DNA of 64,000 bases. Origin: a virus. Positions 12,109 through 28,475 of the stretch are shown one piece after another. The stretch's first letter is position 1, and each line of letters starts with the position of its first letter. The notes under the pieces are model-generated. The model had not been told where the DNA came from. It did no database searches and worked only from the letters and a program-made list of their open reading frames with translations. The stretch lies in IMG/VR virus record IMGVR_UViG_3300028177_000004, positions 16,232 through 80,231 of that record. One strand, written 5' to 3'. Made by a program: the position numbers and the translations under genes.

Positions 12109-12595
12109 CTGAATCGTTCCTTTCCACCACCGTCACACTGAACGCTGTCTCTTGCCAGCTTTCGACGTGTCTTTGGTAGGCTTCGAGCACGAATTGGCGA
12201 TCGCCGTTCGTGTTCATGGAATAGGCGGAAGCCCCGAGTTCGGACATGGTGTTTTGAACACATTCGTGTTCGGATATTTCTTTCGGGAGTTTTAGTGGGA
12301 CACCGGAGTGCTTGCTCCTTATAAGGTCTTGTAGATAGCTCCACATTTGTTGGGATGTTGGTGGCGGGTTTTTTATTCGGGTTTTAAAGTACTGACGCCG
12401 CAATGCCCCCGGATTCGGCATGTACTTTTGTAGGGTACAAAGAGTGGTGAGTTCTTTTCGGGTTTCTTTTTCGGGTAAATCCTGCAGGAGTGCCCACCAA
12501 GCAGCAAAGATCACCTTCTCCTCCGAAGGCAACAAATCCCGATTAAACGACGCATACACCAACCGTACCAACTGTGCCAACTCAGCCTTAGTCAC
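12095..12595 (-). CDS. Putative helicase-loader-like replication protein
   Basis: 166 residues. The first 80 (LVRLVYASFNRDL, FAAWWALLQDL, YMPNPGALRRQYF) recall the all-helical loader/inhibitor domain of phage G39P-type helicase loaders, where a W-x-x-x-L core and a Pro-containing loop are typical. It lies in a four-gene cluster ending with a replication-initiation-like protein. The assignment rests on pattern similarity and neighbours only. Confidence 0.4.
   Translation of the reverse strand: MTKAELAQLVRLVYASFNRDLLPSEEKVIFAAWWALLQDLPEKETRKELTTLCTLQKYMPNPGALRRQYFKTRIKNPPPTSQQMWSYLQDLIRSKHSGVPLKLPKEISEHECVQNTMSELGASAYSMNTNGDRQFVLEAYQRHVESWQETAFSVTVVERNDSDDET
12120..12133 (+). repeat. Dispersed motif copy 1 (CTTTCCACCACCGT)
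   Basis: Exact copy lying in the 3' end of the helicase-loader-like gene and just upstream of the RHH gene that starts at 12108. Confidence 0.75.
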
Positions 12596-13008
12596 CAGCT
12601 ATCACCCCCGGCGTCCCGCACATAGCTTAAAAACCGCTCGACGTGGTCCTGATCCCGGAAGATCAACTCAATATCGTCGTAGCGCTTATTCTGCTTATTC
12701 CGCCCCATATGGAAATCGCTGGTTGCGCAACCGTCGACAGCAAGCTTGCATTCCTCGACCCCATAGTCGGCGATAGCACTGGCAACCTTAAGCCATCTCT
12801 TGGCATCGAGAGCTGGAACCCGCTTCTTCCCCGGACGCATCGTTGAGCACCAGTACTCATAAAGCTCTTGGACTTCGGCTTCAGGTACTTTTTCGGCTTT
12901 TGCCAGCTGCTGGCGGGTGAGCTTCGAAGGTCCTCGTGTTTTCTTAGTGGCCACGAGCTCCCCTGTGATAGTCAGCTGATCCATGGATTTCAGTATATTC
13001 ATGACCAT
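12592..13008 (-). CDS. Replication-initiation-like protein (C-terminal domain)
   Basis: 138 residues. The second half (LAVDGCATSDFHMGRN, YDDIELIFRDQDHVERFL) closely follows the terminal motif seen in many phage replication-initiation/DnaD-like proteins, where GxxxSxxHxGxN is followed by an acidic-aromatic helix. The first 50 residues are basic and could bind DNA. It is the first gene of the leftward cluster, next to a 475-bp palindrome-rich region that may be an origin. A 4-nt ATGA-type overlap couples it to the next gene. Confidence 0.5.
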   Translation of the reverse strand: MVMNILKSMDQLTITGELVATKKTRGPSKLTRQQLAKAEKVPEAEVQELYEYWCSTMRPGKKRVPALDAKRWLKVASAIADYGVEECKLAVDGCATSDFHMGRNKQNKRYDDIELIFRDQDHVERFLSYVRDAGGDSW

Positions 13009-13483
13009 AGCTGATTTCCACCGCGTTGAAGGAAAACTAATCGGTTCCTTCTACATTTATTCAATGTAAATCCCTTTGTCCCTCTTTGGAGGGGGTCTGG
13101 GGGAACCTTTAGAAATGCCCAAACTTATTTTGGGGCAGGCTTCCGCAGAACTTGTATTTACAAGGTGTAGGTGGCTATGAAGGTGAGGTACCTCTAATTG
13201 CTCGTCCTTGACACTACATCAGTTCGCGCAGCTGCGCAAGTCAAAATATCAAAAAGTTTTCGATAGCACCGCCGAGCCCTGTATTTGCAGGCGTATGGTA
13301 TTATTTATTTGACCGACCGAAGTCTCCTTTCCTTCGTCGGGCTGAATGGGGATCGAGTTCTGGGTGCTGTGTGGTTTGCAGGTGGCATCGGCGCCCGGAG
13401 CTCTCCCTTTCCACCACCGTCAGTGCGAAAAACGCACTTTGTGGAAAACTAGCTTTTCTGCAGAAGACTTTTGAGAATTATTC
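13009..13483. other. 475-bp non-coding, palindrome-rich region (candidate origin/operator region)
   Basis: No convincing gene on either strand. Perfect inverted repeats: TACATT/AATGTA (13052-13068), CTTGTA-TT-TACAAG (13151-13164), GCGCAGCTGCGC (13226-13237), AGTGCG/CGCACT (13422-13438) and GAGAAT-T-ATTCTC (13473-13485). TTGACA occurs at 13208-13213 and an AT-rich TATTATTTATTT at about 13299-13310. One copy of the dispersed motif is at 13407. It adjoins replication genes. Either an origin or a multi-operator control region is possible. Confidence 0.45.
13407..13420 (+). repeat. Dispersed motif copy 2 (CTTTCCACCACCGT)
   Basis: Exact copy in the non-coding region, directly before an AGTGCG/CGCACT hairpin. 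Confidence 0.75.
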
Positions 13484-14101
13484 TCACTTCAGGGGGATGA
13501 AGAAAGTCTGATCTTCCCACATGAGGCCGATCGTGCTATAGCCGATCACGTCCATGAGGTTGTCATCTATCGATTCGTTCTCAGGTACCCCCCCGGAGCC
13601 CCGCAGCTCGGCGAGGTGCTCCAATCGAGCGACCTTGTCGTGCATTCGAATCATGAGGCCAATGCGCCCAAAGCGGGAGATGTTCTCAGTGCCGTAGTCT
13701 CGTTGTTTGCGCACGAGAAGCTGTGCCACTTCGTGGGCTGCCGCGACGGGGCTACCGGGTAGAGCTCCCCGGTCTTGAAGTACTTCGCAAGCCGAGGCAG
13801 CTAGGTATTCCCAGATCTGTTCAAAAACTGGAGAATAGGCATCTCGTGTGCCACCCCCCGGGCCTGCAGAACCCAAGTATTCATTAATCAGAAGGTCGAC
13901 CTTTTGGCGAATTTGCTGAAGCTGATCGGAGTCGGAAAGTTGTTTTTCGGAGGTGCTAGCTACAGTGCTGGCAGCGGAATCTTCACTTTTTTTGGATTGT
14001 TCTGCAGCTCCGGGTGACCTGCGAAAACTGTGTAAAAGCTTGTTTTCGCACGAGTCTTCCCAAGAGCCTGCGGGGACACGCATGCCTTTTGGTCCAATCA
14101 C
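13484..14101 (-). CDS. Nmad1/DUF1599-like protein (nucleotide-modification-associated)
   Basis: 205 residues. The C-terminal 90 carry the signature LLVRKQRDYGTENISRFG, then MIRMHDKVARLEHL and NESIDDNLMDVIGYSTIG, which matches the DUF1599/Nmad1 helical domain related to MazG-type all-alpha NTP pyrophosphohydrolases. Such phage proteins are thought to act on nucleotides, possibly with hypermodified bases. The N-terminal half is low-complexity. Coupled to the upstream gene by a 4-nt overlap. Confidence 0.65.
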   Translation of the reverse strand: MIGPKGMRVPAGSWEDSCENKLLHSFRRSPGAAEQSKKSEDSAASTVASTSEKQLSDSDQLQQIRQKVDLLINEYLGSAGPGGGTRDAYSPVFEQIWEYLAASACEVLQDRGALPGSPVAAAHEVAQLLVRKQRDYGTENISRFGRIGLMIRMHDKVARLEHLAELRGSGGVPENESIDDNLMDVIGYSTIGLMWEDQTFFIPLK

Positions 14102-14538
14102 TCGTTATGCCCTACATCTAATAACTGTTCCCATCTAGCGGGTTCAGCCGAATCGGCCAGCTGGGATGCTTGGGTAGCTAGGGAATCAAAGAACTTTTGC
14201 CATTCCTTTTCGCAGAGCTCTGGGTCGGGGTAGAGATTTTTGTAGCTTTCTACCGTCTCTTGGAGATATTCCGTCGCCACAGCAAACAAGATAACAGTTG
14301 GATTAGAGGAAGGCAAGAGAACTGGGCCGTCTTCACCAAGGGAGCTCCTCGATGCGTTTAAGCATTTAATTACACTTGTTCCGTTCGAACCGCAGAAGAC
14401 AACGTCTTGTTCCTTATTGGTTGTACTGAATAGTTCGTATACAAGGACGTTGAGGAGCTCGTGCAGCTGATCTTTCTGTTCTTTTGGTAGAGAATTGATG
14501 AAATCCATCATTTGCTGCTCATCGAACTCTTCATCCAT
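14098..14538 (-). CDS. Unknown acidic helical protein
   Basis: 146 residues, rich in Glu/Asp and Leu, with no recognised motif. It is the first gene of a two-gene leftward unit with the Nmad1-like protein (ATGA overlap). A copy of the dispersed motif, read on this strand as ACGGTGGTGGAAAG, ends two bases before its ATG, where a ribosome-binding site would be. Confidence 0.6.
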   Translation of the reverse strand: MDEEFDEQQMMDFINSLPKEQKDQLHELLNVLVYELFSTTNKEQDVVFCGSNGTSVIKCLNASRSSLGEDGPVLLPSSNPTVILFAVATEYLQETVESYKNLYPDPELCEKEWQKFFDSLATQASQLADSAEPARWEQLLDVGHNE

Positions 14539-14540
14539 TG

Positions 14541-14554
14541 CTTTCCACCACCGT
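14541..14554 (+). repeat. Dispersed motif copy 3 (CTTTCCACCACCGT)
   Basis: Exact copy between two divergent genes; its minus-strand reading abuts the ATG at 14538. Confidence 0.75.
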
Positions 14555-14605
14555 AGCTAGGAACTCGGGTTGCTTCACGAGATTTCTCCCACTATTGTAG
14601 ACGTT

Positions 14606-14974
14606 ATGAATCACGATCAAAGATTCCTTTTGTACATTCGGGCGCTCAACCAGTTCCGACTGCGAGAAGGACACGTCAAAGTCCCGGCAATCCATGTGGA
14701 AGTTCTGGATGAGGAAAGGCTCACTCTTGGCAATTGGGCAAACTACACCCGCCAGAGGAAACGTAGGGGAGAGCTTCCTCCTGAGAGGGTGCGTTCTTTG
14801 GAGATGTTCCCCGGTTGGGAGTGGGGACCGTTGCGTCCCGGGCCTCCCAGAAAAGAGAACAGAGACAAGAACATCAGACAAGCTCGTCTTCGAGGACAGT
14901 CCTTGTCCCAAATTGCCGACACGTTCGGCCTGAGCAGACAGAGGGTGCACCAAATTGTCACTGAAAACGCCTAA
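14606..14974 (+). CDS. Stand-alone helicase-associated (HA) domain plus helix-turn-helix
   Basis: 122 residues. Residues about 6-70 match the helicase-associated domain (RALNQFRLREGHVKVP, LTLGNWANYTRQRKRRGELP, SLEMFPGWEW), normally found as tandem copies behind helicases. The C-terminus (IRQARLRGQSLSQIADTF, GLSRQRVHQIV) is a sigma-region-4-like HTH. The start is chosen because TATTGT (14593-14598) sits 7 nt before ATG 14606, a predicted leaderless arrangement; a TTG at 14570 is the alternative. A DNA-binding regulator is likely. Confidence 0.65.
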   Translation: MNHDQRFLLYIRALNQFRLREGHVKVPAIHVEVLDEERLTLGNWANYTRQRKRRGELPPERVRSLEMFPGWEWGPLRPGPPRKENRDKNIRQARLRGQSLSQIADTFGLSRQRVHQIVTENA

Positions 14975-15179
14975 TACCGAGAGCCCAGCTGCCGTTTGTT
15001 TGGGTTTCGTCTTCACGGTTCTAATACACGCGCTCGGTTTTTGGCTTTTTGCGAAGCTGCTCGACAGCTCACAGCTTGCTGAAAACTCACTTTCTTGGCA
15101 CGCTGCCGCAGGGATAGCAGCCATCTACATTGCCCTCAAAATGTGGAACGTTGCCCTGTTCGGTAGGAGGAAGAACTGA
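14955..15179 (+). CDS. Small two-helix membrane protein
   Basis: 74 residues from TTG 14955, overlapping the upstream gene by 20 nt. Hydrophobic segments at about 13-34 (VCLGFVFTVLIHALGFWLF) and 48-66, then a basic tail (FGRRKN). Function unknown; the start codon is uncertain. Confidence 0.5.
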   Translation: MSLKTPNTESPAAVCLGFVFTVLIHALGFWLFAKLLDSSQLAENSLSWHAAAGIAAIYIALKMWNVALFGRRKN

Positions 15180-15202
15180 CGCCGGGCCGGAAACACCCGG
15201 CG
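15180..15202. terminator. Hairpin between convergent genes
   Basis: Perfect 7-bp stem CGCCGGG/CCCGGCG with a 9-nt loop, directly after the stop at 15179. No T tract follows, so intrinsic termination is weak or assisted. Confidence 0.45.
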
Positions 15203-15258
15203 CCAGTCCTTCATAAGACTGATGGGATGAAAGGCAGGAACATCCCACCAGCCGACCG

Positions 15259-16764
15259 TCATAGCCCTGTGTTCACCGTGAGTCGGGTTCCCATCTGGCG
15301 ATACCAGACGCTCTTGAACATGTAGGGCCAGTTTCGTACTGGCTTCTCGCCACGACTCATCGCCTTGAGCGCCTTGACGCTATCTTCGACGTGTTCGTAG
15401 ACCAGCACGTTGTTCCTGATGATCGTCTTGATGCATTGCATGGCCAGAGCGTCGATGAATCCAGAGTTCTTGCCACAGACACCTCCGTCAGTAATGAAGA
15501 TCACCGGACTGGTTGGGCGTTGTTTTGCCTTGATGCCCCATTCCAGAGCAGGATGATCGACTCCGTTGCCTCCACCCATCTTCGGGATCTCCGCAACCAT
15601 CTTGCCCTTGTGAGCAAGGATGTAGGCGTTCGTGCCCTCGTTGCCAAGATCGGAGTAGCCAAGGATTGTTGCTCCCGGTGCAGCCGACAGGATCTCTTTG
15701 ATCTCTTCAACAGACAGGCTCATGGAGCCGGAGCAGTCGATTACGACTACGCCACCACGTCCATGGATCGTCCGGTCGAAGATTCGACGTTCGGGATCGG
15801 TGAGCAGCCGGTGGAGTCGGCGAGGGTGCTTACCAGTATTGGCAGGAATCCTCTTTTTGCCGATTGACCCGGGAGCGTGGATGGAGAGTTGTTGTGCGCC
15901 GATCCGTAGTTCTTCCCAGCAGGGAATCCCCTTGTAGCCACCCACCCGTTCGTGAGTGACCGACTTGAGTCGTTCCTCCCACCTCTCAAACTTCACAGGG
16001 TCCGTTACTCCGATGTTGGAGTGGCTTCTGCCTTCGACCTCATCGGCATCTTCGTCACCCTCATCAGCCTCGTCGGCCTCTGCGTCGTCTTTAGGGACGA
16101 CAGCCACCGGCTCTGGTTCGGGTGGTGGTGATGCAGCTATCCTGTCGATCCATTCGGCGATGCTCTCTGTGAAGAACATGCCGTAGGGGGCGAGACCGGA
16201 GTCCTCATGGATCTCAGTGGAAGCGAGGTTGTCGTGGTTGTAGTAGTTGCCCATCTCACGTTCGGCTCTGGTAGCGATCCTCTTGAGCGCCTTGCCCCAC
16301 AGCCGGTTGTTACGCCGGATGCCAGTCAGGTACTTCTTGAGCGATGCCGTGCCAGCGCAAGCGATGGTCATGTAGACAGCACCAGCCCAATCAGTGTTGG
16401 CACCGATGCGCTCGCCGTCGTAGGTCTCGCCGTCGTCAGACAGGTGTTCCTTCATGTTGAAGCCAGCCTTCTGGCACAACAGGTTCACCCGTAGTTCTTC
16501 AACGGCTTCCATGCCCTGCTTACTGGCGATGCCACGGGCAATCCACTTCGGCCATTCATCAGCCGGAGAGACTTTGGCATGCATCATCTCATGGGCACGG
16601 ATGACCCGACTCATCTCTGAGTCGTCACCGGGCGAGACCATGCGCCGATTCACAATGTCGGTATGAGGCAGTCCACGCTTAGGTGGGCAATCCTCTACCT
16701 CCCAGCGACCCGGCTCCGTGTCCCCACGGGTCAGGATCTCAGGTTCGGGCGAGTGGAGAGCCAT
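15259..16764 (-). CDS. VWA-domain protein with N-terminal HExxH metallopeptidase-like domain (DUF2201-like)
   Basis: 501 residues. HEMMH at 58-62 with a downstream Glu-rich helix (GMEAVEELRVN) looks like a zincin site. A highly acidic linker (about residues 225-245) follows, then a C-terminal von Willebrand A domain with a MIDAS motif DCSGSMS near residue 345 and FITDGG. The order zincin-acidic linker-VWA is that of DUF2201-type proteins, which pair with MoxR-family AAA+ ATPases. It overlaps the AAA+ gene upstream by 3 nt, so they form one functional pair. The target is unknown. Confidence 0.75.
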   Translation of the reverse strand: MALHSPEPEILTRGDTEPGRWEVEDCPPKRGLPHTDIVNRRMVSPGDDSEMSRVIRAHEMMHAKVSPADEWPKWIARGIASKQGMEAVEELRVNLLCQKAGFNMKEHLSDDGETYDGERIGANTDWAGAVYMTIACAGTASLKKYLTGIRRNNRLWGKALKRIATRAEREMGNYYNHDNLASTEIHEDSGLAPYGMFFTESIAEWIDRIAASPPPEPEPVAVVPKDDAEADEADEGDEDADEVEGRSHSNIGVTDPVKFERWEERLKSVTHERVGGYKGIPCWEELRIGAQQLSIHAPGSIGKKRIPANTGKHPRRLHRLLTDPERRIFDRTIHGRGGVVVIDCSGSMSLSVEEIKEILSAAPGATILGYSDLGNEGTNAYILAHKGKMVAEIPKMGGGNGVDHPALEWGIKAKQRPTSPVIFITDGGVCGKNSGFIDALAMQCIKTIIRNNVLVYEHVEDSVKALKAMSRGEKPVRNWPYMFKSVWYRQMGTRLTVNTGL

Positions 16765-17495
16765 CAGACTCGCTCCACTTTCATGCCGTCCAGAATGTCC
16801 TCTGCACGATCGCCGAACACGATGGTTGCAGCCCTCTCTTCGTCATGGACCTTACGGATCTTGTCGAACGCCATCAGCGTTCTCATGGAAACCCGTCGGG
16901 AGCCAGCGTCGGCCAGCGACACGGCGATCCCACGCAGGTCACGGGAGATCCGCTGCAGAGCGTCGGGATGGGGCTGATCGATACGCACCCGAACAGGGAA
17001 CCGGTCAAGTAGTGCCGGAGGCAACTCTTCCATGTTCTCAATGTTCGTCGTCATCACGGCTGAGAAACCCTGACGGGGACGGTGGATGCGATGGGTCTCA
17101 GGATGCTCCCATGAAGCGGAGTCCTCACCGTCAAGCATGGCGAGAAGGTTCGCGGCTACGTCGCCACCAGCCTTGTCGATCTCATCAGCGATGAGTCGAC
17201 CGCCACGCACACCGTCGCCTTCCCACGCCTTGAGCGCGGCTCCGGCGACCCATGAGAATGAGCCGTTGGAGTTGGGCATGAATGAGCCAGTGACATCACC
17301 ATTGGTCATGTCCTCTGTGCATACCATGCGGAACGCACCTGCTGACGTGTCGCCGAAGGTGAGACCAGCGAAGGTCTTGCCGGTACCCGGGGGACCGAAA
17401 AGTACGATCCGGTCGATACCAGCGTTGAGTGAATCCTCAAGTGTTTGCCAGCACTCAGGAAGTACGACGTTTCCGTCGGAGTCTGTAGTAGTCAT
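16764..17495 (-). CDS. MoxR/CbbQ-like AAA+ ATPase
   Basis: 243 residues from ATG 17495 (AAAGGCAG upstream). Walker A GPPGTGKT at 34-41, Walker B LIADEID, sensor-like VMTTNIEN and arginine finger region PPALLDRFPVRVRI follow in AAA+ order, as in MoxR/CbbQ/CobS. These ATPases act as chaperones that remodel a target through a VWA partner; the partner here is the next gene. CobS/CobT-like and MoxR/VWA pairs occur in many phages without a proven role. Confidence 0.8.
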   Translation of the reverse strand: MTTTDSDGNVVLPECWQTLEDSLNAGIDRIVLFGPPGTGKTFAGLTFGDTSAGAFRMVCTEDMTNGDVTGSFMPNSNGSFSWVAGAALKAWEGDGVRGGRLIADEIDKAGGDVAANLLAMLDGEDSASWEHPETHRIHRPRQGFSAVMTTNIENMEELPPALLDRFPVRVRIDQPHPDALQRISRDLRGIAVSLADAGSRRVSMRTLMAFDKIRKVHDEERAATIVFGDRAEDILDGMKVERV

Positions 17496-17597
17496 AACTG
17501 CCTTTGTTAGTAGTAGTGATAGTGGCGTTGTTGCCACCAAGGGGAATGGTATCCGTAATAAAGCCGTGAGGCAACCTCGGATGCAACATCACCCAAA

Positions 17598-18092
17598 TTA
17601 ATCTGAGCTCTTCTTGTGGGGGTCGCGAGCCTCATAGAGCCCACGCTTGATCTTGTTGTAGTGACGGCTGGTCGCAAGCCATTTAACAACGGTCTGTGCG
17701 CCGAATCCGCTTATCTCAGCGAGTTCAGCGGTAGTGAACTGCTCGCACACATGTTGGACGGCGTGAGCTTCCAAGTCCCGCCAGCGGGCCTTCTGGTTTT
17801 TTTTGCGCTTCTCAGGTGGAGTCAGGTCGTCTTTTTCGCAGAACTTCTTGATTACCCATTCAAGTGTTCCCAGTCGAAGGCTGTAGGGATAGAGGTGAGC
17901 GTAGACCGACCCCTGCTCGCCCTTGCGAATCCACACCTGTAAGCAATACATTGCACGGTCACGTTCGGCGATGAGGTCTGCCTTTTCTTTGGGAATAGCT
18001 ATAGCTGACCCATACCTCTCGATCTCTTTATCCCATGCCTTATGGTGTATACCGTTAATAGTTTCGTCGTCGAGCTTTCTCTTTAAGCTCAT
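17598..18092 (-). CDS. Unknown protein with C-terminal helix-turn-helix
   Basis: 164 residues. The C-terminal part (FTTAELAEISGFGAQTVVKWLATSRHY) is a good HTH match, and the middle is basic (PPEKRKKNQKARWRD). An RBS (AGAAAGG) lies before ATG 18092, and a family promoter with -10 TACGGT is at 18137-18155. It is the first gene of the leftward unit containing the AAA+/VWA pair and may regulate it. Confidence 0.6.
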   Translation of the reverse strand: MSLKRKLDDETINGIHHKAWDKEIERYGSAIAIPKEKADLIAERDRAMYCLQVWIRKGEQGSVYAHLYPYSLRLGTLEWVIKKFCEKDDLTPPEKRKKNQKARWRDLEAHAVQHVCEQFTTAELAEISGFGAQTVVKWLATSRHYNKIKRGLYEARDPHKKSSD

Positions 18093-18136
18093 GTGTTGCC
18101 TTTCTGTTTACCCCTTCTGGGTTTTCCCTCGGTATT

Positions 18137-18155
18137 GGCAACCGTAGCCGTTATT
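18137..18155 (-). promoter_or_regulatory. Family promoter for the 18092 leftward gene
   Basis: Reads AATAACGGCTACGGTTGCC on the minus strand, with a -10-like TACGGT. It matches the TTATnACGGnTAnGnTnGC consensus recurring from 18 to 41 kb. The transcript would have a 40-50 nt leader. Confidence 0.5.
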
Positions 18156-18172
18156 CGAGGTCGTCACAACAC

Positions 18173-18205
18173 TTGACAAAAGATTTGCGTAACGACTGCT
18201 AAAAT
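18173..18205 (+). promoter_or_regulatory. Strong sigma-70-like promoter
   Basis: TTGACA at 18173-18178 and an extended -10 TGCTAAAAT ending at 18205. The 21-nt spacer is long, so the extended -10 may be what matters. It drives the small gene at 18236. Confidence 0.55.
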
Positions 18206-18235
18206 GGGTACGTCCTACAAGGTTCAGGAGACACT

Positions 18236-18358
18236 ATGAAAAAAGCAACTCAGCCAAGCCCCATGGGTGAAGGCACAGAAATGGATACGTCCGGTCACAG
18301 CGACGGCGCAGCCCCGGCGAAAGCAGAGAAGCCTGCTCCCAAAGCTGACAAGAAGTAA
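18236..18358 (+). CDS. Lys/Ala/Pro-rich 40-residue peptide
   Basis: ATG 18236 follows AGGAG at 5-6 nt and a near-consensus promoter, so it should be well expressed. The peptide is Lys/Ala/Pro-rich at its C-terminus (AKAEKPAPKADKK), like a short relative of H1-type proteins. It stands alone and is followed by a dispersed motif copy and a terminator-like hairpin. Function unknown. Confidence 0.6.
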   Translation: MKKATQPSPMGEGTEMDTSGHSDGAAPAKAEKPAPKADKK

Positions 18359-18361
18359 GCC

Positions 18362-18375
18362 CTTTCCACCACCGT
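18362..18375 (+). repeat. Dispersed motif copy 4 (CTTTCCACCACCGT)
   Basis: Exact copy 4 nt after the stop of the 40-residue peptide gene, in non-coding DNA. Confidence 0.75.
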
Positions 18376-18556: not shown

Positions 18557-18565
18557 TATTGGGTG

Positions 18566-22159: not shown

Positions 22160-22428
22160 TCGCCTGCCCACGATGCGGGAAGAACGCTTTGGAGGAGGAA
22201 CGCCCTGCTCTGAACGCTCTCAGTCGCACGACCAGAACGTCGGAGGACACTCCCGTCTACGTCTGCTCTCCCTGTGGGACAGACGAGGCGATGCAGGACT
22301 GGCTCCAAGGAGGCGCCACTCCCCAAGAGGATTGGCCGATGGACGGATTCGCCGTGCCAGACATGGTGGAGTCGATCCAGAGGGCAACCGATCTTGCCAT
22401 TACGGAGAAGCTGGAGGAGTTGCTGTGA
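22156..22428 (+). CDS. Zinc-ribbon-like protein
   Basis: 90 residues in ATGA overlap. N-terminal CPRCGK and CSPCGT form a C-x2-C...C-x2-C zinc ribbon, followed by an acidic helical tail. Function unknown; part of a coupled three-gene chain. Confidence 0.6.
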   Translation: MIACPRCGKNALEEERPALNALSRTTRTSEDTPVYVCSPCGTDEAMQDWLQGGATPQEDWPMDGFAVPDMVESIQRATDLAITEKLEELL

Positions 22429-22514
22429 CCTCCACGGAGGTGCCCACACACGACTGGGTGACGCTCACCAAACTCGCAGAAAACCTGACCGACGAGAATG
22501 TGATCGTGGGTTAG
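22425..22514 (+). CDS. Short peptide (29 residues) ending at an in-frame TAG
   Basis: GTG start overlaps the upstream TGA (GTGA). The peptide ends at TAG 22512, but the same frame stays open for another 62 codons, so this may be the first half of a split or readthrough gene. Confidence 0.4.
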   Translation: MTSTEVPTHDWVTLTKLAENLTDENVIVG

Positions 22515-22703
22515 TGTGCGGGGCTATCAGCTGTCTTCAGCGTTGAGCCGAGCTCCCTCCTTAGGGGATGGTTGCGCATCGAAACCGAACACGGGCATCT
22601 GTACGCAACGGATAAAGACGAGTTTGAAGTTCTTGACCACGCTCACTACACAGCTTGGGCGGGTGAAGAACCCAAATTGATTGCTGTTGATTACAACGCA
22701 TAG
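22515..22703 (+). pseudogene. In-frame continuation after TAG: remnant or independently started ORF
   Basis: 62 sense codons in the same frame as the peptide upstream, protein-like at the C-terminus (RIETEHGHLYATDKDEFEVL). No ATG or GTG start; a TTG at 22573 has AGGGGATGG just before it and would give about 43 residues. Either an amber-interrupted gene, readthrough product, or short TTG-started gene. Confidence 0.4.
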
Positions 22704-22717
22704 GTTGTAAGCGACAC

Positions 22718-22733
22718 CTATTACAGTTACGCT
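22718..22733 (+). promoter_or_regulatory. Family promoter with leader
   Basis: CTATTACAGTTACGCT with -10 TACGCT ending at 22733. Unlike P1-P3 it is followed by a leader with a full AGGAGG ribosome-binding site before ATG 22758. Confidence 0.5.
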
Positions 22734-22757
22734 CTTATTCAGGAGGTACTACTACTA

Positions 22758-22964
22758 ATGAGCGAACCAACTATTACCGTAGAGGGGTGTGCATCCCCAT
22801 GCCGATCCAGCATCAATTTGGATGATGGTCGGTACCTAGACATCAACATTACCCATGAGGGTGTCATCATGGATGTGTACCTGCGAGGGTTCACGCCGGA
22901 AACGGACACCCATCTGGGCACAGTCGGCATGACCTTTGAGGAGTGGGCGGACTGGACATTCTGA
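22758..22964 (+). CDS. Unknown small acidic protein
   Basis: 68 residues with a strong AGGAGG RBS. The SINLDDGRYLDINI segment resembles the 21806 protein, suggesting a shortened paralogue. No family recognised. Confidence 0.65.
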   Translation: MSEPTITVEGCASPCRSSINLDDGRYLDINITHEGVIMDVYLRGFTPETDTHLGTVGMTFEEWADWTF

Positions 22965-23010
22965 TCCCGGCTTTGGAGTCGCACCGTGATTGCGCAAGGC
23001 AGGGTCTGTG

Positions 23011-23250
23011 ATGGCAACGATACACACGGACACGATGGCCGGGATGCTGGCAAGGGTGCGGGAATCTTCCGGCAACCTTGCGGACCAGCAGATCTGGGCG
23101 ACAGATGAGGAGCGGGATGCGTTCCGGCAGGGCATGAACGCTACGTGGCACATGGTCACATATGGGGTGGCGGCGTCAATGGTGGCGGATCATCCCCGGT
23201 GGGACCGGGACCGGTTCTACGATCTGGCAGACGGGGTGGACCACGCGTAG
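23011..23250 (+). CDS. Unknown helical protein, 79 residues
   Basis: Start at ATG 23011 chosen over an upstream TTG. Two amphipathic helices (MAGMLARVRESSGNLADQQIW and FRQGMNATWHMV, listed separately). No motif recognised. Confidence 0.5.
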   Translation: MATIHTDTMAGMLARVRESSGNLADQQIWATDEERDAFRQGMNATWHMVTYGVAASMVADHPRWDRDRFYDLADGVDHA

Positions 23251-23287
23251 CAACCTGACCAATCTGACCGACAAGGAAGGGAAGATT

Positions 23288-23659
23288 ATGGGCACTGACC
23301 ACACGGTAGACATTCTGGAATTTAGGGGGGGATTGGAACGAGATCTCCGGGAAGTGCTTGATGCCATGAAGGCCTTGCATGGGTATGACGAGCGGCTGAT
23401 CGAAGAGCAGAGGCTGCATGACATGTTTCTGGAGGTGCTGACGTGGAGGGGCGACGATTTTCGGAACAAGGCCGAATTGGTTCTGACGGTCGGCGGTCCC
23501 ACCGTTCGCGTTGAGTGGGATTCTCGCTGGTCGTCGGAGCATAGTGGGGCTACGCTCACCCATTCGTGGGGTACTCAGTGGGGCGTGGAGCGTACTAGCG
23601 TGGAGATGTCGGGCGATCTGGTCGATGAGGTTTTGCAGGCTTTGGGCGTGTGGGTTTGA
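23288..23659 (+). CDS. Unknown protein, 123 residues
   Basis: AAGGAAGGGAAG ribosome-binding site before ATG 23288. N-terminal helix (RDLREVLDAMKALHGYDERL) followed by a beta-rich half (AELVLTVGGPTVRVEW). No family recognised. Confidence 0.6.
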   Translation: MGTDHTVDILEFRGGLERDLREVLDAMKALHGYDERLIEEQRLHDMFLEVLTWRGDDFRNKAELVLTVGGPTVRVEWDSRWSSEHSGATLTHSWGTQWGVERTSVEMSGDLVDEVLQALGVWV

Positions 23660-23750
23660 CGCCCTGAGGTTTCCCCCGGGTAGTCCATCTTCGGAGCGTG
23701 GCCGGAGCGGGGACGATAGTAAGTCAACCAACTAGAGAGGGATACACGCT

Positions 23751-23918
23751 ATGGAAAACGTAAGCGAGCAAGTAGCGGAGATACTGCTGGAGGTGCTGCT
23801 AGACGCCAGCACCGGCAAGGCTCCGAACATGGATCTAGGGACGGTGCACCTAGACCTTGCCGAGTGGGCGGACGATATTCTGTCCTCCGACGTGATCACC
23901 ATGATCAACAAGTCATGA
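23751..23918 (+). CDS. Unknown acidic helical protein, 55 residues
   Basis: ATG 23751 follows AGAGAGGG. Leu-rich amphipathic helix (QVAEILLEVLLDASTGKAP) then an acidic tail. Overlaps the next gene by ATGA. Confidence 0.5.
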   Translation: MENVSEQVAEILLEVLLDASTGKAPNMDLGTVHLDLAEWADDILSSDVITMINKS

Positions 23919-24145
23919 GGACTGACCCAGAACGCCGACTGGAGTGGCGATCAGCACCGGCATTGAGGGACTACATCAAGCGCCCCTACTTCTGCCCGTT
24001 CTGCGAGCACCCGGTCATCGAGGCCACGAAGTTGGAAGCCTTCGAGAACATGGTGTACCAATGGGTGCGCTGCCCTGAGTGCGAGACAGAGTGGCACGAC
24101 CTGTTCGAGCTGTACGGCATTGAGGAAGTGGTGGCAGGTAAGTGA
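23915..24145 (+). CDS. Zinc-ribbon protein
   Basis: 76 residues with a canonical zinc ribbon: CPFCEHP and CPECETEW separated by about 25 residues. ATGA overlap upstream and GTGA overlap downstream. Possibly nucleic-acid binding; function unknown. Confidence 0.6.
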   Translation: MRTDPERRLEWRSAPALRDYIKRPYFCPFCEHPVIEATKLEAFENMVYQWVRCPECETEWHDLFELYGIEEVVAGK

Positions 24146-24537
24146 GAGTTCGGGTCTACTGGAATCTTCACAAGGACTGTTATTCCGTGCTTGATTGGGA
24201 GCCCCGCTCTCGCAAGAAGGGCAGACTGGTTTGCCATTTGAGCGAGCTGATGTTGAAAGACGCAAAGTTCGTTGTTCAACTGTCCGGGAATAAAAGAGTT
24301 CGCGGTGAAAAGCGCAAAAACGTACATGCGTTTATCGAAGGCGATTGGTACGAGTATTCAGCGCGCAGCACCTTTGCGATGATGGGCAGAGTAAGGTACA
24401 ACCCGTATCAGGACACAGCCTTTGTCTTGACTCAGGATGGGCAAGAGGTTGAGCTAGCTAGTGAGGTACATCTCTCGACTTGCGTGACCTATTCTGTTGA
24501 AAAGGTAGGTCCGCAGGTGTTAGTCCCCCTCTATTGA
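24142..24537 (+). CDS. Unknown beta-rich protein
   Basis: 131 residues, GTG start overlapping the upstream stop. Alternating hydrophobic pattern and many aromatic and basic residues suggest a beta-barrel nucleic-acid-binding fold, but no family is recognised. It converges with the leftward gene at 24520, overlapping by 18 nt. Confidence 0.55.
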   Translation: MRVRVYWNLHKDCYSVLDWEPRSRKKGRLVCHLSELMLKDAKFVVQLSGNKRVRGEKRKNVHAFIEGDWYEYSARSTFAMMGRVRYNPYQDTAFVLTQDGQEVELASEVHLSTCVTYSVEKVGPQVLVPLY

Positions 24538-24867
24538 GCCCTTTCCTCCACCGTAACGAGTTAGAAGCGCTGTTGTGATGAGCGCTTGTTCGTGGTGAGT
24601 TCTGCTGGTTAGCTGCCGATCCGGGGCTTCGCCTTCCGGGGCGTGAACTCGGATGATTTCGTCAGTCCAAAGGTCAATCGTGTAGAACGTGCCTGCGTTC
24701 TCGAAGATGGCGACATCAGAGCCGACGCCTTCTGCCTCTATCTGCCCCTTGGACCGGTACACAGCCCCGATGGGGAGCCCGCCGTATTTGGCATCGCTCC
24801 ACCAGACAACTCGACTACCGGGTGGGATGAACCCTCCCAGTTCTTCCTGTGTGTACGTTTTTACCAC
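24520..24867 (-). CDS. Unknown protein of a two-gene inverted island
   Basis: 115 residues from GTG 24867, overlapping the upstream gene's stop. The first half reads SRVVWWSDAKYGGLPIGAVY and FYTIDLWTDEIIRV, beta-rich; the end is Gly-rich. No family recognised. Dispersed motif copy 6 overlaps its last codons. Confidence 0.5.
   Translation of the reverse strand: MVKTYTQEELGGFIPPGSRVVWWSDAKYGGLPIGAVYRSKGQIEAEGVGSDVAIFENAGTFYTIDLWTDEIIRVHAPEGEAPDRQLTSRTHHEQALITTALLTRYGGGKGSIEGD
24541..24554 (+). repeat. Dispersed motif copy 6 (CTTTCCTCCACCGT)
   Basis: One substitution (A to T) relative to the consensus; located at the junction of two convergent genes. Confidence 0.7.
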
Positions 24868-25154
24868 AGCTGTGATGCTTTCCAATCTACGACGGTTTTT
24901 CCATCGTAGTCGATCCAGACATGCCCGAATACCTCGTACTCGGCAGGACTTTCTAGGGTTTGTCTGTAGGTGCATCGTGTCTCAAGGTGGTAGCCCCAAG
25001 TCCAGCCACGCCACGGGTGGGTACCCTCGTCGAAGTCGCCAAGATCTTCGTTTAGATCCTCGCACTCGGAGGAGGGGTCGTAACCGTCTGCCTGTGCGGC
25101 AGCTTCTTGGACTGCTTCTTCTAGTCCATCTGGTATGACAAGTGTTTCGCTCAT
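24861..25154 (-). CDS. Unknown acidic protein
   Basis: 97 residues, strongly acidic first half (SSECEDLNEDLGDFDEG) and an aromatic beta-rich second half (WGYHLETRCTYRQ, FGHVWIDYDGKTVVDW). No family recognised. Driven by a family promoter on the minus strand and predicted leaderless. Confidence 0.65.
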   Translation of the reverse strand: MSETLVIPDGLEEAVQEAAAQADGYDPSSECEDLNEDLGDFDEGTHPWRGWTWGYHLETRCTYRQTLESPAEYEVFGHVWIDYDGKTVVDWKASQLW

Positions 25155-25160
25155 AATGGC

Positions 25161-25176
25161 ATCCTATCGGTAATAA
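25161..25176 (-). promoter_or_regulatory. Family promoter, minus strand, leaderless
   Basis: TTATTACCGATAGGAT on the minus strand; -10 TAGGAT ends 6 nt before ATG 25154. Shows that the promoter family also serves leftward genes. Confidence 0.65.
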
Positions 25177-25228
25177 CTAATAACGTCTACCTAATAATAA
25201 AGATTGTTCAAATGTTGTGTCACGTTGC

Positions 25229-25243
25229 CTTTACGGCTAGATT
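25229..25243 (+). promoter_or_regulatory. Family promoter, leaderless
   Basis: CTTTACGGCTAGATT; -10 TAGATT (25238-25243) ends 6 nt before ATG 25250. Confidence 0.6.
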
Positions 25244-25249
25244 CCCATT

Positions 25250-25420
25250 ATGAAGCAAAGCATACCCACTTGCACGATCTGCGGAGGATCGGGAGCCGGT
25301 TACGAGTTTCCACTATTCCCCCGTTGCTCTGACAAGACATTCGGCGCAATCTGCGCTGAGTGCGACCATGAGCGAGCCAACGAATACGGACTCGCCCGAC
25401 CCGGGAGGCACACACGGTGA
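25250..25420 (+). CDS. Zinc-ribbon-like peptide, 56 residues
   Basis: Predicted leaderless. CTICGG and CAECDH give a C-x2-C...C-x2-C zinc ribbon. The CxxCGGSGAG start recalls DnaJ-type zinc motifs. GTGA overlap with the next gene. Function unknown. Confidence 0.6.
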   Translation: MKQSIPTCTICGGSGAGYEFPLFPRCSDKTFGAICAECDHERANEYGLARPGRHTR

Positions 25421-25485
25421 TTGCGTTTTTCCTATTGGGGGTAGTTCTCTACCTCTGTTCCGACAAACATCCGTGGGGCGTCTGA
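25417..25485 (+). CDS. Minimal membrane peptide, 22 residues
   Basis: GTG 25417 with GGGAGG at good spacing, overlapping the upstream TGA; its TGA overlaps the next ATG (TGATG). One hydrophobic helix (IAFFLLGVVLYLC). Overlaps at both ends and the RBS support translation. Confidence 0.5.
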   Translation: MIAFFLLGVVLYLCSDKHPWGV

Positions 25486-25688
25486 TGACGCCGCAGAAAG
25501 GCGACCGAGTTCGCCTTATCCACACATCCGACTTCGCAACAAAGCTTCAGGCCGGGGCTATGGGCACGGTTCGCAAGTTCCGAGAGAACGTCATGGATGA
25601 ATACGACCAACTACACGTTGACTGGGACGATGGTTCAGGGCTATCCTTGATTCCAGAGTCAGGCGACAGATGGGAGATCGTCCAGTGA
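25485..25688 (+). CDS. DUF4314-like protein
   Basis: 67 residues: KGDRVRLIHTSDF, LQAGAMGTVRKF, LHVDWDDGSGLSLIPESGD and W follow the DUF4314 pattern (GDrVrL...G..GTV...v.WD.G..L.li...D.W). It is an SH3-like barrel common in phages and plasmids; function unknown. Coupled on both sides. Confidence 0.7.
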   Translation: MTPQKGDRVRLIHTSDFATKLQAGAMGTVRKFRENVMDEYDQLHVDWDDGSGLSLIPESGDRWEIVQ

Positions 25689-25861
25689 AGTGTGGTTTTT
25701 GTGGGTTGCCCTGCCGCCCCGAAGAAGGGGACGTGGAAGTCCCGGTTCCGAACGACCTGAAAACGATGTGGGTGCACAAGGTGTGCCACATGCAGTTTCT
25801 CTCTGATCGTTGGTCAGACGAGGTTGACCGTCGATTAGACAACACAGTTGCTACGGGTTGA
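25685..25861 (+). CDS. Zinc-finger-like peptide, 58 residues
   Basis: GTG overlaps the upstream TGA. KCGFCGLPC at the N-terminus and a later HKVCH give a likely C-x2-C...H/C site. Last gene of the four-gene chain beginning at 25250. Confidence 0.55.
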   Translation: MKCGFCGLPCRPEEGDVEVPVPNDLKTMWVHKVCHMQFLSDRWSDEVDRRLDNTVATG

Positions 25862-25866
25862 GAGGG

Positions 25867-25880
25867 CTTTCCTCCACCGT
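25867..25880 (+). repeat. Dispersed motif copy 7 (CTTTCCTCCACCGT)
   Basis: Same A-to-T variant as copy 6; intergenic, 5 nt after one stop and 18 nt before the next ATG. Confidence 0.7.
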
Positions 25881-25897
25881 AAGAAGAAGCGCGTGTT

Positions 25898-26116
25898 ATG
25901 TCAATGAATCATTTACCCGACCAGTTTGTCTGTGTCCAATGCGGTAGCCCCGTTACGAAGTCCAGCTCTAACACGCTTCGTTTGATTAGGGGTTGGGTGA
26001 AGGGTGAGGGCAAGTCTATTCAGTATGTGGAAAACGACGAATACAAATACCTTCACGATTGGTGTTTGCGGGGCTACCGGGACGGTGGTCCAGAAACCAT
26101 GAGCCTTTTCGAGTAA
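25898..26116 (+). CDS. Zinc-ribbon-like protein
   Basis: 72 residues. CVQCGSP near the N-terminus and HDWCLRG near the C-terminus could form a treble-clef-like site. Function unknown. Confidence 0.55.
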   Translation: MSMNHLPDQFVCVQCGSPVTKSSSNTLRLIRGWVKGEGKSIQYVENDEYKYLHDWCLRGYRDGGPETMSLFE

Positions 26117-26134
26117 GGCGCGTTGCCCTTATAC

Positions 26135-26151
26135 CTTATTACGGGTAGGGT
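26135..26151 (+). promoter_or_regulatory. Family promoter with leader
   Basis: CTTATTACGGGTAGGGT with -10 TAGGGT ending at 26151; the first plausible start (26190) is 38 nt further and has its own purine-rich RBS. Confidence 0.55.
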
Positions 26152-26189
26152 TGCATTACCTACTAGATGAGGGAAAGGGGGTGTTACTT

Positions 26190-26333
26190 ATGCCAAATCC
26201 ACGCGACGATAGCGAGTTCGATAGCTCCGACGATGATGGCGGGGCTGCCTTCTCTTCTGAGGAGGCGCGGGGCGACTTCTACTACGACATGTGGGATGCC
26301 GACCCCGACATGGTCGGTTCGGGTATCTGCTGA
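26190..26333 (+). CDS. Very acidic 47-residue peptide
   Basis: GGGAAAGGGGG precedes ATG 26190. Asp/Glu-rich (DDSEFDSSDDDGGAAF, FYYDMWDADPDM). Such phage peptides can act as DNA mimics, but there is no specific evidence. The following 26334-26552 holds a CGCC-TTCG-GGCG hairpin, two AGCCCCG-type motifs and a protein-like fragment without a start. Confidence 0.45.
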   Translation: MPNPRDDSEFDSSDDDGGAAFSSEEARGDFYYDMWDADPDMVGSGIC

Positions 26334-26552
26334 CCCCAGTTGACCTTCGCCTTCGGGCGGGGGTCTCCTGTAGCCCCGAAGTTAAGCCCGCTCCGGAGCG
26401 AAGCGTCAAGCGGGGCTGCCCGCATTCGCAACGCTGCCGACTATCTGGAAGCTCGGTGAGTTGCCCAAGGTTGCGTATGGTGGGCTTTAACGTTAGCCTG
26501 TTATCACAAGCGAGACTGGAGTCTTGCAAGGACTACACAAGGAGTGTATCGA

Positions 26553-26882
26553 ATGAGTCAGATTCTGACTGATAAACCCACTTGGGCGAAGACGGTTGAT
26601 CCGTTGGGTCGCCCGTGCAAATACCCGTGGCACAAATGGTTCGACGGACAGACCCACCTGCTGGTGCGTCAACCAAAGCGCTCTCTGAGCGGCGGCTACA
26701 CCCATGGCGACTATGAGACTGAAAGCCGGTTCTTTCGCCATACTGTCATCAGGGCAGCCGAAAAGCGCAACAAGAACGTCGAAGTGATCTGGCGTAACGG
26801 TCACAACTTCGAAGACGGTTGTGACCGGATGATCGTGACCGCCCAAGACATCGCGCCTCTTGACACGCAGCTCTACACCTGA
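26553..26882 (+). CDS. Unknown basic protein
   Basis: 109 residues; RBS AAGGAGTG before ATG 26553. Begins MSQILTDKPTWAKTVDPLGRP; basic central part and a final beta-strand region. No family recognised. Confidence 0.6.
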   Translation: MSQILTDKPTWAKTVDPLGRPCKYPWHKWFDGQTHLLVRQPKRSLSGGYTHGDYETESRFFRHTVIRAAEKRNKNVEVIWRNGHNFEDGCDRMIVTAQDIAPLDTQLYT

Positions 26883-26912
26883 TTACTACTATCACGATAG
26901 GGGAAATGACCG

Positions 26913-27065
26913 ATGAGTGAACTGGCACCAATGGAGGGACCGGGATTCGTCTCATGCCGCAAATGCGGCGACGACATGGTCTACTCCCCCAGCATGGAGC
27001 CCATCAAGACCGAGACTGGTCGCAACCGGGTCATGTGTGTACCCTGCATCTACGCCATGCTGTAG
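26913..27065 (+). CDS. Zinc-ribbon peptide, 50 residues
   Basis: SCRKCGDD and CVPCIYAM form a C-x2-C...C-x2-C ribbon. GGGGA lies before ATG 26913. A strong terminator follows at 27112. Confidence 0.6.
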   Translation: MSELAPMEGPGFVSCRKCGDDMVYSPSMEPIKTETGRNRVMCVPCIYAML

Positions 27066-27111
27066 ACTGGTAACACGGCGAGCCGGTCAACTTCTCGGAG
27101 TCGATCAAAGG

Positions 27112-27145
27112 GAACCCTCACTTCGGTGGGGGTTTTCTGCTTTTT
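27112..27145 (+). terminator. Intrinsic terminator
   Basis: AACCCTCAC-TTCG-GTGGGGGTT stem with a UUCG-type tetraloop, followed by TTTTCTGCTTTTT. Ends the transcription unit that includes the 26913 gene. Confidence 0.8.
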
Positions 27146-27195
27146 GGTGAGCTGCAGCTGGAAGCCCCGTTCGGGGATGTCTTCTTGATTTGTTG

Positions 27196-27201
27196 TAGAC
27201 T
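27196..27201 (+). promoter_or_regulatory. -10 box TAGACT, leaderless
   Basis: Ends 7 nt before ATG 27209. The same TAGACT and ATGAGCGAC start context is seen on the minus strand at 54288-54275. Confidence 0.5.
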
Positions 27202-27208
27202 GTAAGAC

Positions 27209-27325
27209 ATGAGCGACACACCAGATCCAGACGATAACGATATGACCCGAGAGGACAACTCTCGACCGATTACTTCTCCGGCGCCGCCTGTCGAACCGCC
27301 CAGCCCTGTGCCTCCTTCTGCCTGA
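27209..27325 (+). CDS. Pro/Asp-rich peptide, 38 residues
   Basis: Predicted leaderless ATG. Starts MSDTPDPDDNDMTRED and ends Pro-rich (SPAPPVEPPSPVPPSA). No domain; disordered. Confidence 0.45.
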   Translation: MSDTPDPDDNDMTREDNSRPITSPAPPVEPPSPVPPSA

Positions 27326-27365
27326 GCTGCAGATCAGAGCCCCGCTCTTCGTGTAAAATGATTAC

Positions 27366-27518
27366 ATGAGTAATGAAGGGGAGGAGAGCTCACCCGACGA
27401 ACCCATCGGTAAAACCGAAGCCGAACTGAATGGCTTGGGTCGTCAAATGACGGTAGGTGAAAGGATCGTCAAAGCGGTGATGGGGCAAAGACCCCGATGT
27501 GCTGGCTGCCGCAAATAG
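27366..27518 (+). CDS. Small peptide, 50 residues
   Basis: TAAAAT (27354-27359) lies 6 nt before the ATG, so a leaderless transcript is likely. Acidic start, basic end with RPRCAGCRK (a lone C-x2-C). Function unknown. Confidence 0.5.
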   Translation: MSNEGEESSPDEPIGKTEAELNGLGRQMTVGERIVKAVMGQRPRCAGCRK

Positions 27519-27584
27519 CGGGACTCAGCGAGGAGCTCCTCAAACACGTTGTCGTTGTCAGTTATAAAGGATAAGATTGTCGCT

Positions 27585-27791
27585 ATGAGGAAGAAGGACC
27601 GTACCCCGATTGGCAAGACCAGTCGCCGCATCGCCAAGGAGGACTTGAAGTCCATCCGACGGGCGAGCCGCGACGCACAGGTCAACGCCCTGCGAGAAGG
27701 CCGGAAGTGCCGTGCCGCAACATTCGTTGATCGCAAAAAAGAGGGGAATCGAACCATCTGCCGAGACAAGATCCGGTACTGGACTGGCTAA
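27585..27791 (+). CDS. Strongly basic small protein
   Basis: 68 residues, about one third Lys/Arg. TAAGAT (27572-27577) is 7 nt before the ATG, predicted leaderless. Probably nucleic-acid binding; no family recognised. Confidence 0.55.
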   Translation: MRKKDRTPIGKTSRRIAKEDLKSIRRASRDAQVNALREGRKCRAATFVDRKKEGNRTICRDKIRYWTG

Positions 27792-27860
27792 GACAACTGT
27801 TACTTCATTACCTCAACGTAACGACGGGAAGAGTCCCGCATAACACTGAGGAGAAATCAA

Positions 27861-27983
27861 ATGGAGTTCAACATAACCCTTGACTTACACAGCGGATGGG
27901 TACTAATCTGCGTAGCAGGACTACTATCAGCCACCGCATTTATTTTGTGGCATCGCAAGAAGGGGAGTGGGAAATATAAATGA
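27861..27983 (+). CDS. Small membrane peptide, 40 residues
   Basis: GAGGAG precedes ATG 27861. One transmembrane helix (WVLICVAGLLSATAFILW) and a basic tail (HRKKGSGKYK), giving a positive-inside topology. ATGA overlap with the next gene. Confidence 0.55.
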   Translation: MEFNITLDLHSGWVLICVAGLLSATAFILWHRKKGSGKYK

Positions 27984-28306
27984 CCACATCAACCGGTTCA
28001 GAGAGTTCATCCGAAACAACCGTTGGCTCTAAACGGGAGCTAGCGGAACGGGGCTGCCAAGAGCTCAACCCGGGGGCACTGTTTATGGATGGGCTTGATG
28101 ACGCCATTCTGGGTATTGGAAACCAATATTCCAAACCTCCCGTAGTGGTCTACGACGAAGGTCGCATCCTGAACGTGTTGATGGATGAACAGGGCATGTC
28201 CCATGACGAAGCGTGGGAATGGTATTCGTTCAACATCGCTGGGGCATGGATCGGCGAGAACACGCCAATCATTATGGCAGGACTTCACTCGTTGGAGGAG
28301 TTGTAA
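27980..28306 (+). CDS. Conserved phage protein of unknown function
   Basis: 108 residues. FMDGLDDAILGIG, PVVVYDEGRILNVLM, GMSHDEAWEWYSFNI and WIGENTPIIM form a motif string that I recognise as recurring in uncharacterised phage proteins. The first 30 residues are Ser/Thr-rich. Coupled to the membrane peptide upstream. Confidence 0.7.
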   Translation: MTTSTGSESSSETTVGSKRELAERGCQELNPGALFMDGLDDAILGIGNQYSKPPVVVYDEGRILNVLMDEQGMSHDEAWEWYSFNIAGAWIGENTPIIMAGLHSLEEL

Positions 28307-28322
28307 GTGTCATAATGAGTTT

Positions 28323-28475
28323 ATGACTGACTCATCCACCACCGTACTAAGAAGTGGGGTAATTCCTGACGTGGTTGATGACGATTTGGACTTTTGGGAT
28401 AACCAAATCGTCATGGTTGAAGCCGGGGCTTTGGAGCTCAAAGGTCTTCTTGACGAGGATTTAGCTGGGCTCTAG
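28323..28475 (+). CDS. Acidic peptide, 50 residues
   Basis: CATAAT (28311-28316) ends 6 nt before ATG 28323, predicted leaderless. The codons for SSTTV contain dispersed motif copy 8. Acidic and helical C-terminus. Function unknown. Confidence 0.5.
   Translation: MTDSSTTVLRSGVIPDVVDDDLDFWDNQIVMVEAGALELKGLLDEDLAGL
28335..28345 (+). repeat. Dispersed motif copy 8 (partial, TCCACCACCGT)
   Basis: The last 11 bases of the 14-bp motif are exact, located in codons 5-8 of the gene at 28323. Confidence 0.6.

Follow-up and report, generated by a model that had tools for sequence, protein, structure and literature searches.

A one-strand motif in uncultured viral contigs

The 64,000-nucleotide (nt) stretch of viral DNA analysed here (the window), part of the 80,231-base record IMGVR_UViG_3300028177_000004, carries repeated copies of a 14-bp motif, CTTTCCWCCACCGT, all of which point in the same direction. 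The motif matched exactly seven times on the plus strand and not once on the minus strand, in the A form CTTTCCACCACCGT at 12120-12133, 13407-13420, 14541-14554, 18362-18375 and 20659-20672, and in the T form CTTTCCTCCACCGT at 24541-24554 and 25867-25880 (window positions throughout). An eighth plus-strand copy, TCATCCACCACCGT at 28332-28345, matches at 11 of 14 positions with its last ten bases exact and is a regular TCA variant of the motif family. A first-pass annotation of this DNA had described these copies as a genuine multi-copy motif absent elsewhere, and within the record this was borne out by a search of all 80,231 bases at up to one mismatch, which gave seven forward and no reverse matches and none for a reversed-pattern control. 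At three mismatches, the window contained 18 matches against 10.8 expected, and 1 of 100 shuffles reached 18, so that, on their own, only the strict copies rise above background; a plus-strand sequence with two mismatches at 11653-11666, GTTTCCACCACCAT, is possibly a decayed ninth site.

The copies lie at gene ends, between genes or in first codons, as the same annotation had reported. Three of them follow plus-strand stop codons closely, at 3 nt past the TAA of a short open reading frame (ORF) for site 18362, 3 nt past the TGA of ORF 24142-24537 for site 24541, and 5 nt past the TGA of gene 25670-25861 for site 25867, while site 20659 falls within the last codons of a plus-strand ORF ending at 20691 and site 28332 within the first codons of another, short one. 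Site 12120 lies within the last codons of minus-strand gene 12095-12595 and precedes the ATG of minus-strand gene 11938-12108 by 11 nt; site 14541 stands 2 nt upstream of the ATG of minus-strand gene 14098-14538 and ~50 nt upstream of plus-strand gene 14606-14971; and site 13407 is located between the minus-strand genes 12592-13008 and 13484-14101. Gene calls for site contexts and for the breakpoints discussed below came from simple custom ORF scorers rather than a standard gene finder, and gene limits in the window are uncertain, the scorer used for the nine genomes below having put sites 12120 and 24541 inside antisense ORFs.

The motif recurs across a large set of uncultured actinophages; there it lies around replication and early genes, almost always in one direction. 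Its supposed absence elsewhere did not extend beyond the record, as at least 119 stretches from other viral contigs contained the exact 14-mer; among the matches listed, 44 of 119 loci had two or more copies at up to one mismatch, and 43 of these 44 had them on one strand only. Thirty records picked from these matches were counted over their whole length for CTTTCCNCCACCGT, which occurred 2-17 times in 23 records and once in the other seven, with no match to the reversed-pattern control in any of the 30, and 21 of the 23 multi-copy records were one-stranded. Because the records were picked for containing the motif, these counts show strandedness and not frequency.

A search of viral contigs with the HA-domain protein encoded at 14606-14971, which ends in a sigma70_r4-like helix-turn-helix (HA-HTH), yielded 309 relatives, of which 80 were kept and 79 counted (L023 was left out); five full-length loci of 11 from genome contigs, all metagenome-assembled genomes (MAGs), brought the set to 84. 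At up to one mismatch, CTTTCCNCCACCGT was present in 57 of the 84 loci, with 232 matches on the strand of the HA-HTH gene and none on the opposite strand (~1.2 for shuffled patterns), and the remaining 27 loci carry TCTTCC or TCATCC forms. The shorter core TCCNCCACCGT was present in all 84, with 486 matches on the HA-HTH gene strand and none opposite. Searches with two further conserved proteins, an AAA ATPase and a 501-aa protein, named 142 new loci (L067 and L114, which were not new, were left uncounted; some contigs appear twice), 133 of which were HA-HTH-positive; 131 of these had the core, 872:0 by strand, and the other two, L372 and L374, had altered site forms. As these large counts contain repeated loci of one contig and near-identical contigs, the dereplicated count was made by clustering the HA-HTH protein at 80% identity and keeping a single locus from each cluster: in all 28 representatives, including L146, which is almost a twin of this phage with 99.99% identity along the 16.8 kb of L146, the core was present, 171 versus 0 by strand, with 0.41 expected per strand.

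Sixteen further records were counted whole with the core. In 14 of them, 90-173 kb long, 7-13 sites lie on one strand and mostly within one 11-23 kb segment (two segments run over contig ends), G051 having one same-strand match outside its segment; the core was absent from the remaining two, the records of L372 and L374, and the reversed control matched once in 4 of the 16. Each of seven cultured actinophages had 0-2 scattered core matches, and no near DNA match to window positions 10000-30000 was found among cultured phages. In a 1.5 Mb actinobacterial MAG (L226/G042), six of eight core matches lie on one contig (control 4), as do at least 10 of 34 in G043; core and control counts were 24 and 21 in G044 and 15 and 5 in G045. 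The location of sites mostly on the phage contig in MAGs such as G042 makes a host-borne reader of the motif unlikely. No mention of a repeated polar motif of this kind was found among the titles and abstract openings listed in searches of openly licensed literature.

In nine genomes, 83 of 98 sites were intergenic, and the commonest context, between two codirectional genes, accounted for 41. A codirectional gene preceded 53 intergenic sites, in 19 cases at a distance of 2-12 nt, and 53 sites had a codirectional next gene, whose start lay 100-180 nt further on in 32. A wider comparison of 79 taxa, distinct in the 501-aa protein, covered 572 sites, 437 of them outside called genes, with an intergenic share of the span of 28%; of the 89 sites that came after a codirectional gene, 39% lay within 10 nt of its stop, versus 5% of random intergenic positions.

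The gene block and candidate binding proteins

The sites lie in and around a block of largely minus-strand genes. Beyond a WhiB gene (10851-11168) lie genes for a 114-aa NikA/ribbon-helix-helix-like protein (RHH114; 11604-11948, minus), whose conserved C-terminal cysteines look zinc-ribbon-like by eye, and for a 56-aa ribbon-helix-helix-like protein (RHH56, MKRNxGRP...; 11938-12108, minus). These are followed by a helicase-loader-like gene with a weak PHROG match (12095-12595, minus) and an O-like replication initiation gene (12592-13008, minus). The HA-HTH gene (14606-14971, plus; 122 aa) is codirectional with the sites, and beyond it lie the two block markers, the 501-aa protein (15259-16764, minus; PHROG 33218) and the AAA ATPase (16764-17540, minus). 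Each of these two markers occurs in 27 of the 28 HA-HTH clusters, and the 501-aa protein has a DxSGSM-like stretch. HA-HTH, RHH56, RHH114 and the O-like protein are the candidate readers of the site.

HA-HTH relatives occur in multi-motif contigs: the protein was found in 19 of 31 records, namely 18 of the 23 multi-copy records and this phage, and in none of the seven single-copy records. It was not found in the multi-copy records G004, G014, G015, G022 and G030, and it had no match among cultured phages. Its AlphaFold model (mean pLDDT 88.7) has two domains. The RHH114 model reached a pLDDT of 78.8; both ribbon-helix-helix-like proteins gave weak Pfam matches only, and profile searches with them up to E 0.1 turned up no relative of solved structure. 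All nine HA-HTH-negative loci keep their sites, 47 in total on one strand, so that HA-HTH goes with the lineage and is not needed for the persistence of the sites. These loci, and the other genes that occupy its expected spot in four contigs, weaken HA-HTH as the sole reader.

Changes in the site itself argue for a reader that acts in trans. All seven sites of L372 have TACG, as do six of seven in L374, where the last has TGCG, and L370 and L337 are mixed; a concerted TACG change in two lineages implies a trans-acting factor. Partial Mantel correlations over 58 loci were 0.30 for RHH114, 0.26 for the O-like protein, 0.22 for the AAA ATPase, 0.16 for HA-HTH, −0.04 for the gene at 17598-18092 and −0.15 for the 501-aa protein. 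Phylogenetic generalized least squares (PGLS) over the 79 taxa, run with a fixed lambda of 0.8 on all columns tried in four proteins under three labels, gave its top score to residue 58 of the aligned O fragment (t 7.1), followed by RHH114 residues 42 (−6.5) and 10 (−6.3), RHH56 (5.4) and HA-HTH (5.2). Where O residue 58 is D, the mean fraction of CTT-type sites is 0.79, compared with 0.14 for other residues. The PGLS scores are correlations on few independent changes, and the two analyses together point to no one protein as the reader.

A possible polar roadblock and its rivals

The observations to be explained are the near-strict use of one strand per genome, the concentration in the replication block and the early genes next to it, the closeness to codirectional stops and the concerted drift. 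The reading we favour, to which our analysis gives a probability of about 45%, is that the motif is a multi-copy polar site with core TCCNCCACCGT, putatively bound by a phage-encoded protein of the replication/early block and acting as a stoperator-like roadblock. The putative site would comprise the core with, for example, CTT, TCT or TCA 5′ of it, and its reader would be a DNA-binding protein encoded by the phage in that block, with HA-HTH, the ribbon-helix-helix-like pair (11604-12108) and the O-like initiator as candidates. Once bound, this protein would block RNA polymerase coming from one direction, as stoperators do; the roadblock would end codirectional early transcription units past their last stop codon and stop read-through going antisense into the oppositely oriented replication genes, leaving the transcription of those genes themselves free. 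A polar roadblock covers the sites past stops, the sites in opposite-strand blocks and the flipped site of G011, which lies just past a gene that is SNF2-like by eye and points with that gene, opposite to the other 16 exact copies; G030 shows a flank similar to that of the reversed G011 site. The first-pass annotation had offered a binding site as one of two interpretations, and the sharing of a polar motif among divergent phages of one lineage, with concerted drift within a genome, supports that part.

Stoperators are described as asymmetric sites of 13 bp that lie mainly between genes and keep one orientation relative to transcription (PMC3029335, PMC9283540; the comparison rests also on PMC6550527). 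The reverse complement CTTGACAKCCACC of the L5 stoperator consensus GGTGGMTGTCAAG given in PMC3029335 resembles, by eye, CTTTCCRCCACC of the motif. Like the sites here, the stoperators of Cluster A phages (L5, Bxb1) are many, short and asymmetric, mostly intergenic or at gene ends, and in one orientation per segment. By contrast, the present sites occupy one 11-23 kb segment of large phages rather than the whole genome, their orientation is constant along the DNA through an opposite-strand block, with many sites antisense to replication genes, and, unlike in the temperate Cluster A phages, no integrase was found. The Cluster A repressor combines HTH and stoperator domains, whereas here the candidate proteins are different and no repressor relative was detected by sequence: the HA-HTH profile, compared by sequence with solved structures up to E 1, found no chain of an HTH and stoperator-domain repressor, and a fold comparison matched HTH domains over residues 79-122 only, with no stoperator repressor among the 50 matches listed. 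Since orientation follows the DNA segment, the sites are local and no integrase was found, we do not class these sites as a Cluster A stoperator system.

Several results weigh against the roadblock. Two multi-copy records have sites on both strands (1 and 16 in G011, 2 and 2 in G030), four of the 14 records with a site segment have one opposite-strand core match outside it, and G046, reached via a partial HTH match only, had 113 core matches against 30 for the control, both strands alike. The sites are confined to one segment and not genome-wide, with a wider spread in G011 (~51 of 57 kb) and G017 (~37 of 60 kb). As the loci of the 79 taxa centre on the opposite-strand replication block, antisense genes contain, or flank on both sides, 419 of their 572 sites, which indicates that orientation follows the DNA segment and not each gene. 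The preference for stop codons could stem from promoters filling the rest of the gap. In L267, L287, L290 and L366, the expected spot of HA-HTH is covered and holds other genes, and the sites are kept. Finally, tyrosine integrase (PF00589) was found in none of 42 records, seven of them single-copy and probably unrelated, and serine recombinase (PF00239) in none of 36, several of the records in both searches being fragments, which leaves a lysogeny repressor without an obvious place.

The main rival of the roadblock, though itself somewhat unlikely, is a role in replication or partition: the sites would be scattered directional iterons or centromere-like repeats in the vicinity of an origin, bound by the O-like initiator or by NikA-like ribbon-helix-helix proteins, and their orientation would reflect fork or segregation polarity. 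Iterons of phage and plasmid replication initiators are direct repeats in one orientation near the initiator gene, and the present sites resemble them in these respects. The segment holds the O-like initiator and the helicase-loader-like gene, the sites look densest there by eye, and their 5′ form tracks O residue 58, the largest PGLS score of all columns tried. Moreover, three of the four HA-HTH-negative contigs have the O-like gene and three have RHH56, and a site lies within 150 nt upstream of the O start in 36 of 79 taxa, at 13-30 nt in 27 of these 36. However, the gene at 17598-18092 has a site equally near in 33 of 70 taxa, and the O correlation, which depends on a small number of independent changes, fails in L287, L290 and L339. 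Upstream sites at this distance were also seen for HA-HTH (25 of 77), the DUF1599 gene (23 of 61) and the 14098 gene (22 of 77), and more rarely for RHH56 (9 of 79), the loader (9 of 78), the AAA ATPase (7 of 77), RHH114 (1 of 75), the 501-aa protein (0 of 79) and WhiB (0 of 59). A spacing of 0.2 to >10 kb is unlike a tandem iteron cluster, replication leaves the tie to gene ends and stop codons unaccounted for, and ParA (PF13614) was found in only 1 of 35 records, several of them fragments.

The remaining explanations are less probable still. An element acting in the transcript, either as a 3′-end processing or protein site or through pairing of CUUUCCNCCACCGU in early 3′ untranslated regions with complementary GGUGGNGGAAAG near the starts of opposite-strand replication genes, is improbable: sense copies do come after stop codons, and of 347 sites with an antisense 5′ neighbour, 24% lie within 35 nt of its start versus 16% at random, but this start bias is weak, L011 has a separate GGAGG between motif and ATG, 116 of 572 sites are antisense copies inside genes, and folding downstream of sites is no stronger than upstream (mean z −0.76 versus −0.72). 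The last result also led us to reject a terminator hairpin. The other interpretation in the first-pass annotation, a recombination boundary for cassette exchange, gained weak support at best and is very improbable. Of 1375 alignment breakpoints in the motif span, 11% fell within 25 bp of a site versus 3% for a uniform distribution, and of 855 intergenic breakpoints 17% did so versus 8% of random intergenic positions, a modest excess confounded by the fact that the aligned pairs are not independent and that the peak consists of homology beginning at the motif, as site conservation alone would give; most breakpoints lie elsewhere, the alignment with L146, the nearest relative, had none, and neither recombinase family was found. 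Least likely of all is that the opposite strand (ACGGTGGNGGAAAG) serves as a Shine-Dalgarno or start-associated sequence. Sites 12120 and 14541 do precede minus-strand starts closely, with like spacing by eye at some L290 junctions, yet the other six window sites do not stand in this position, and the contexts in the nine genomes, where two codirectional genes so often flank a site, and in the 79 taxa already disfavour it. Start-associated sequences of Cluster K mycobacteriophages are likewise a short motif repeated at gene junctions; they precede starts closely, whereas codirectional copies here come after stops. A flank profile of 117 sites had C or G before the motif in 95% and, by eye, an A/T pair 6-7 bases past its end, and a promoter was rejected as no −10-like element was seen by eye at a fixed distance.

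A broader proposal, which we regard as rather doubtful, is that these sites form a previously undescribed polar system shared by a whole lineage of uncultured actinophages. A single conserved sign of 11-14 bp, pointing one way over the replication/early segment, would organise the direction of replication or transcription and would be read by the phages' own replication-block protein or proteins, and neighbouring regulators such as HA-HTH could be lost while the sign stays. The near-perfect strand asymmetry across dozens of divergent phages is a strong and simple handle that marks a lineage of uncultured, probably actinobacterial phages, and the site defines a regulatory or replication segment with a small set of candidate readers. 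Should the sites prove stoperator-like, polar roadblocks to transcription would extend beyond the temperate phages of Cluster A; should the initiator be their reader, they would constitute a new type of origin site, both dispersed and directional.

Host and neighbouring sequence features

The WhiB gene and the relatives that were found point to a host that is probably actinobacterial. whiB-encoding lake actinophages have been described (PMC10914622), in a paper whose main text does not contain the word "motif". Four contigs of the lineage (L225, L227, L228 and L229) sit in MAGs that carry the labels Poseidoniaceae, Planctomycetaceae, Phycisphaerae and Gammaproteobacteria, probably as a result of binning errors.

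Other short sequences recur around the sites. The DnaA-box-like TTATCCACA, found in the window near 21748 and in G011, G017, G023, G012 and G001, is far above expectation in most of the nine genomes (33 in 60 kb of G017 versus ~0.5 expected; 2 in G000 and 0 in G005), and 43 copies in either orientation lie within 300 nt past a site, 38 of them at 50-125 nt. AGCCCCG/CGGGGCT is likewise enriched, from 29 versus 11 expected in G000 up to 64 versus 6 in G017; in the window it occurs over 12230-41212, most densely at 18-30 kb, and frequently, as judged by eye, in inverted pairs that lie between a motif copy and the following gene. Promoter-like TTATTACGGATACG repeats at 20452, 20833 and 21788 stand a few bases upstream of the ATGs of small genes, a placement that suggests near-leaderless early genes, and read as 'LITDTV' in over-extended ORFs. 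Further along, a 913-aa protein encoded at 59892-62633, adjoining the capsid gene, has Zeta_toxin and DUF3721 domain matches.

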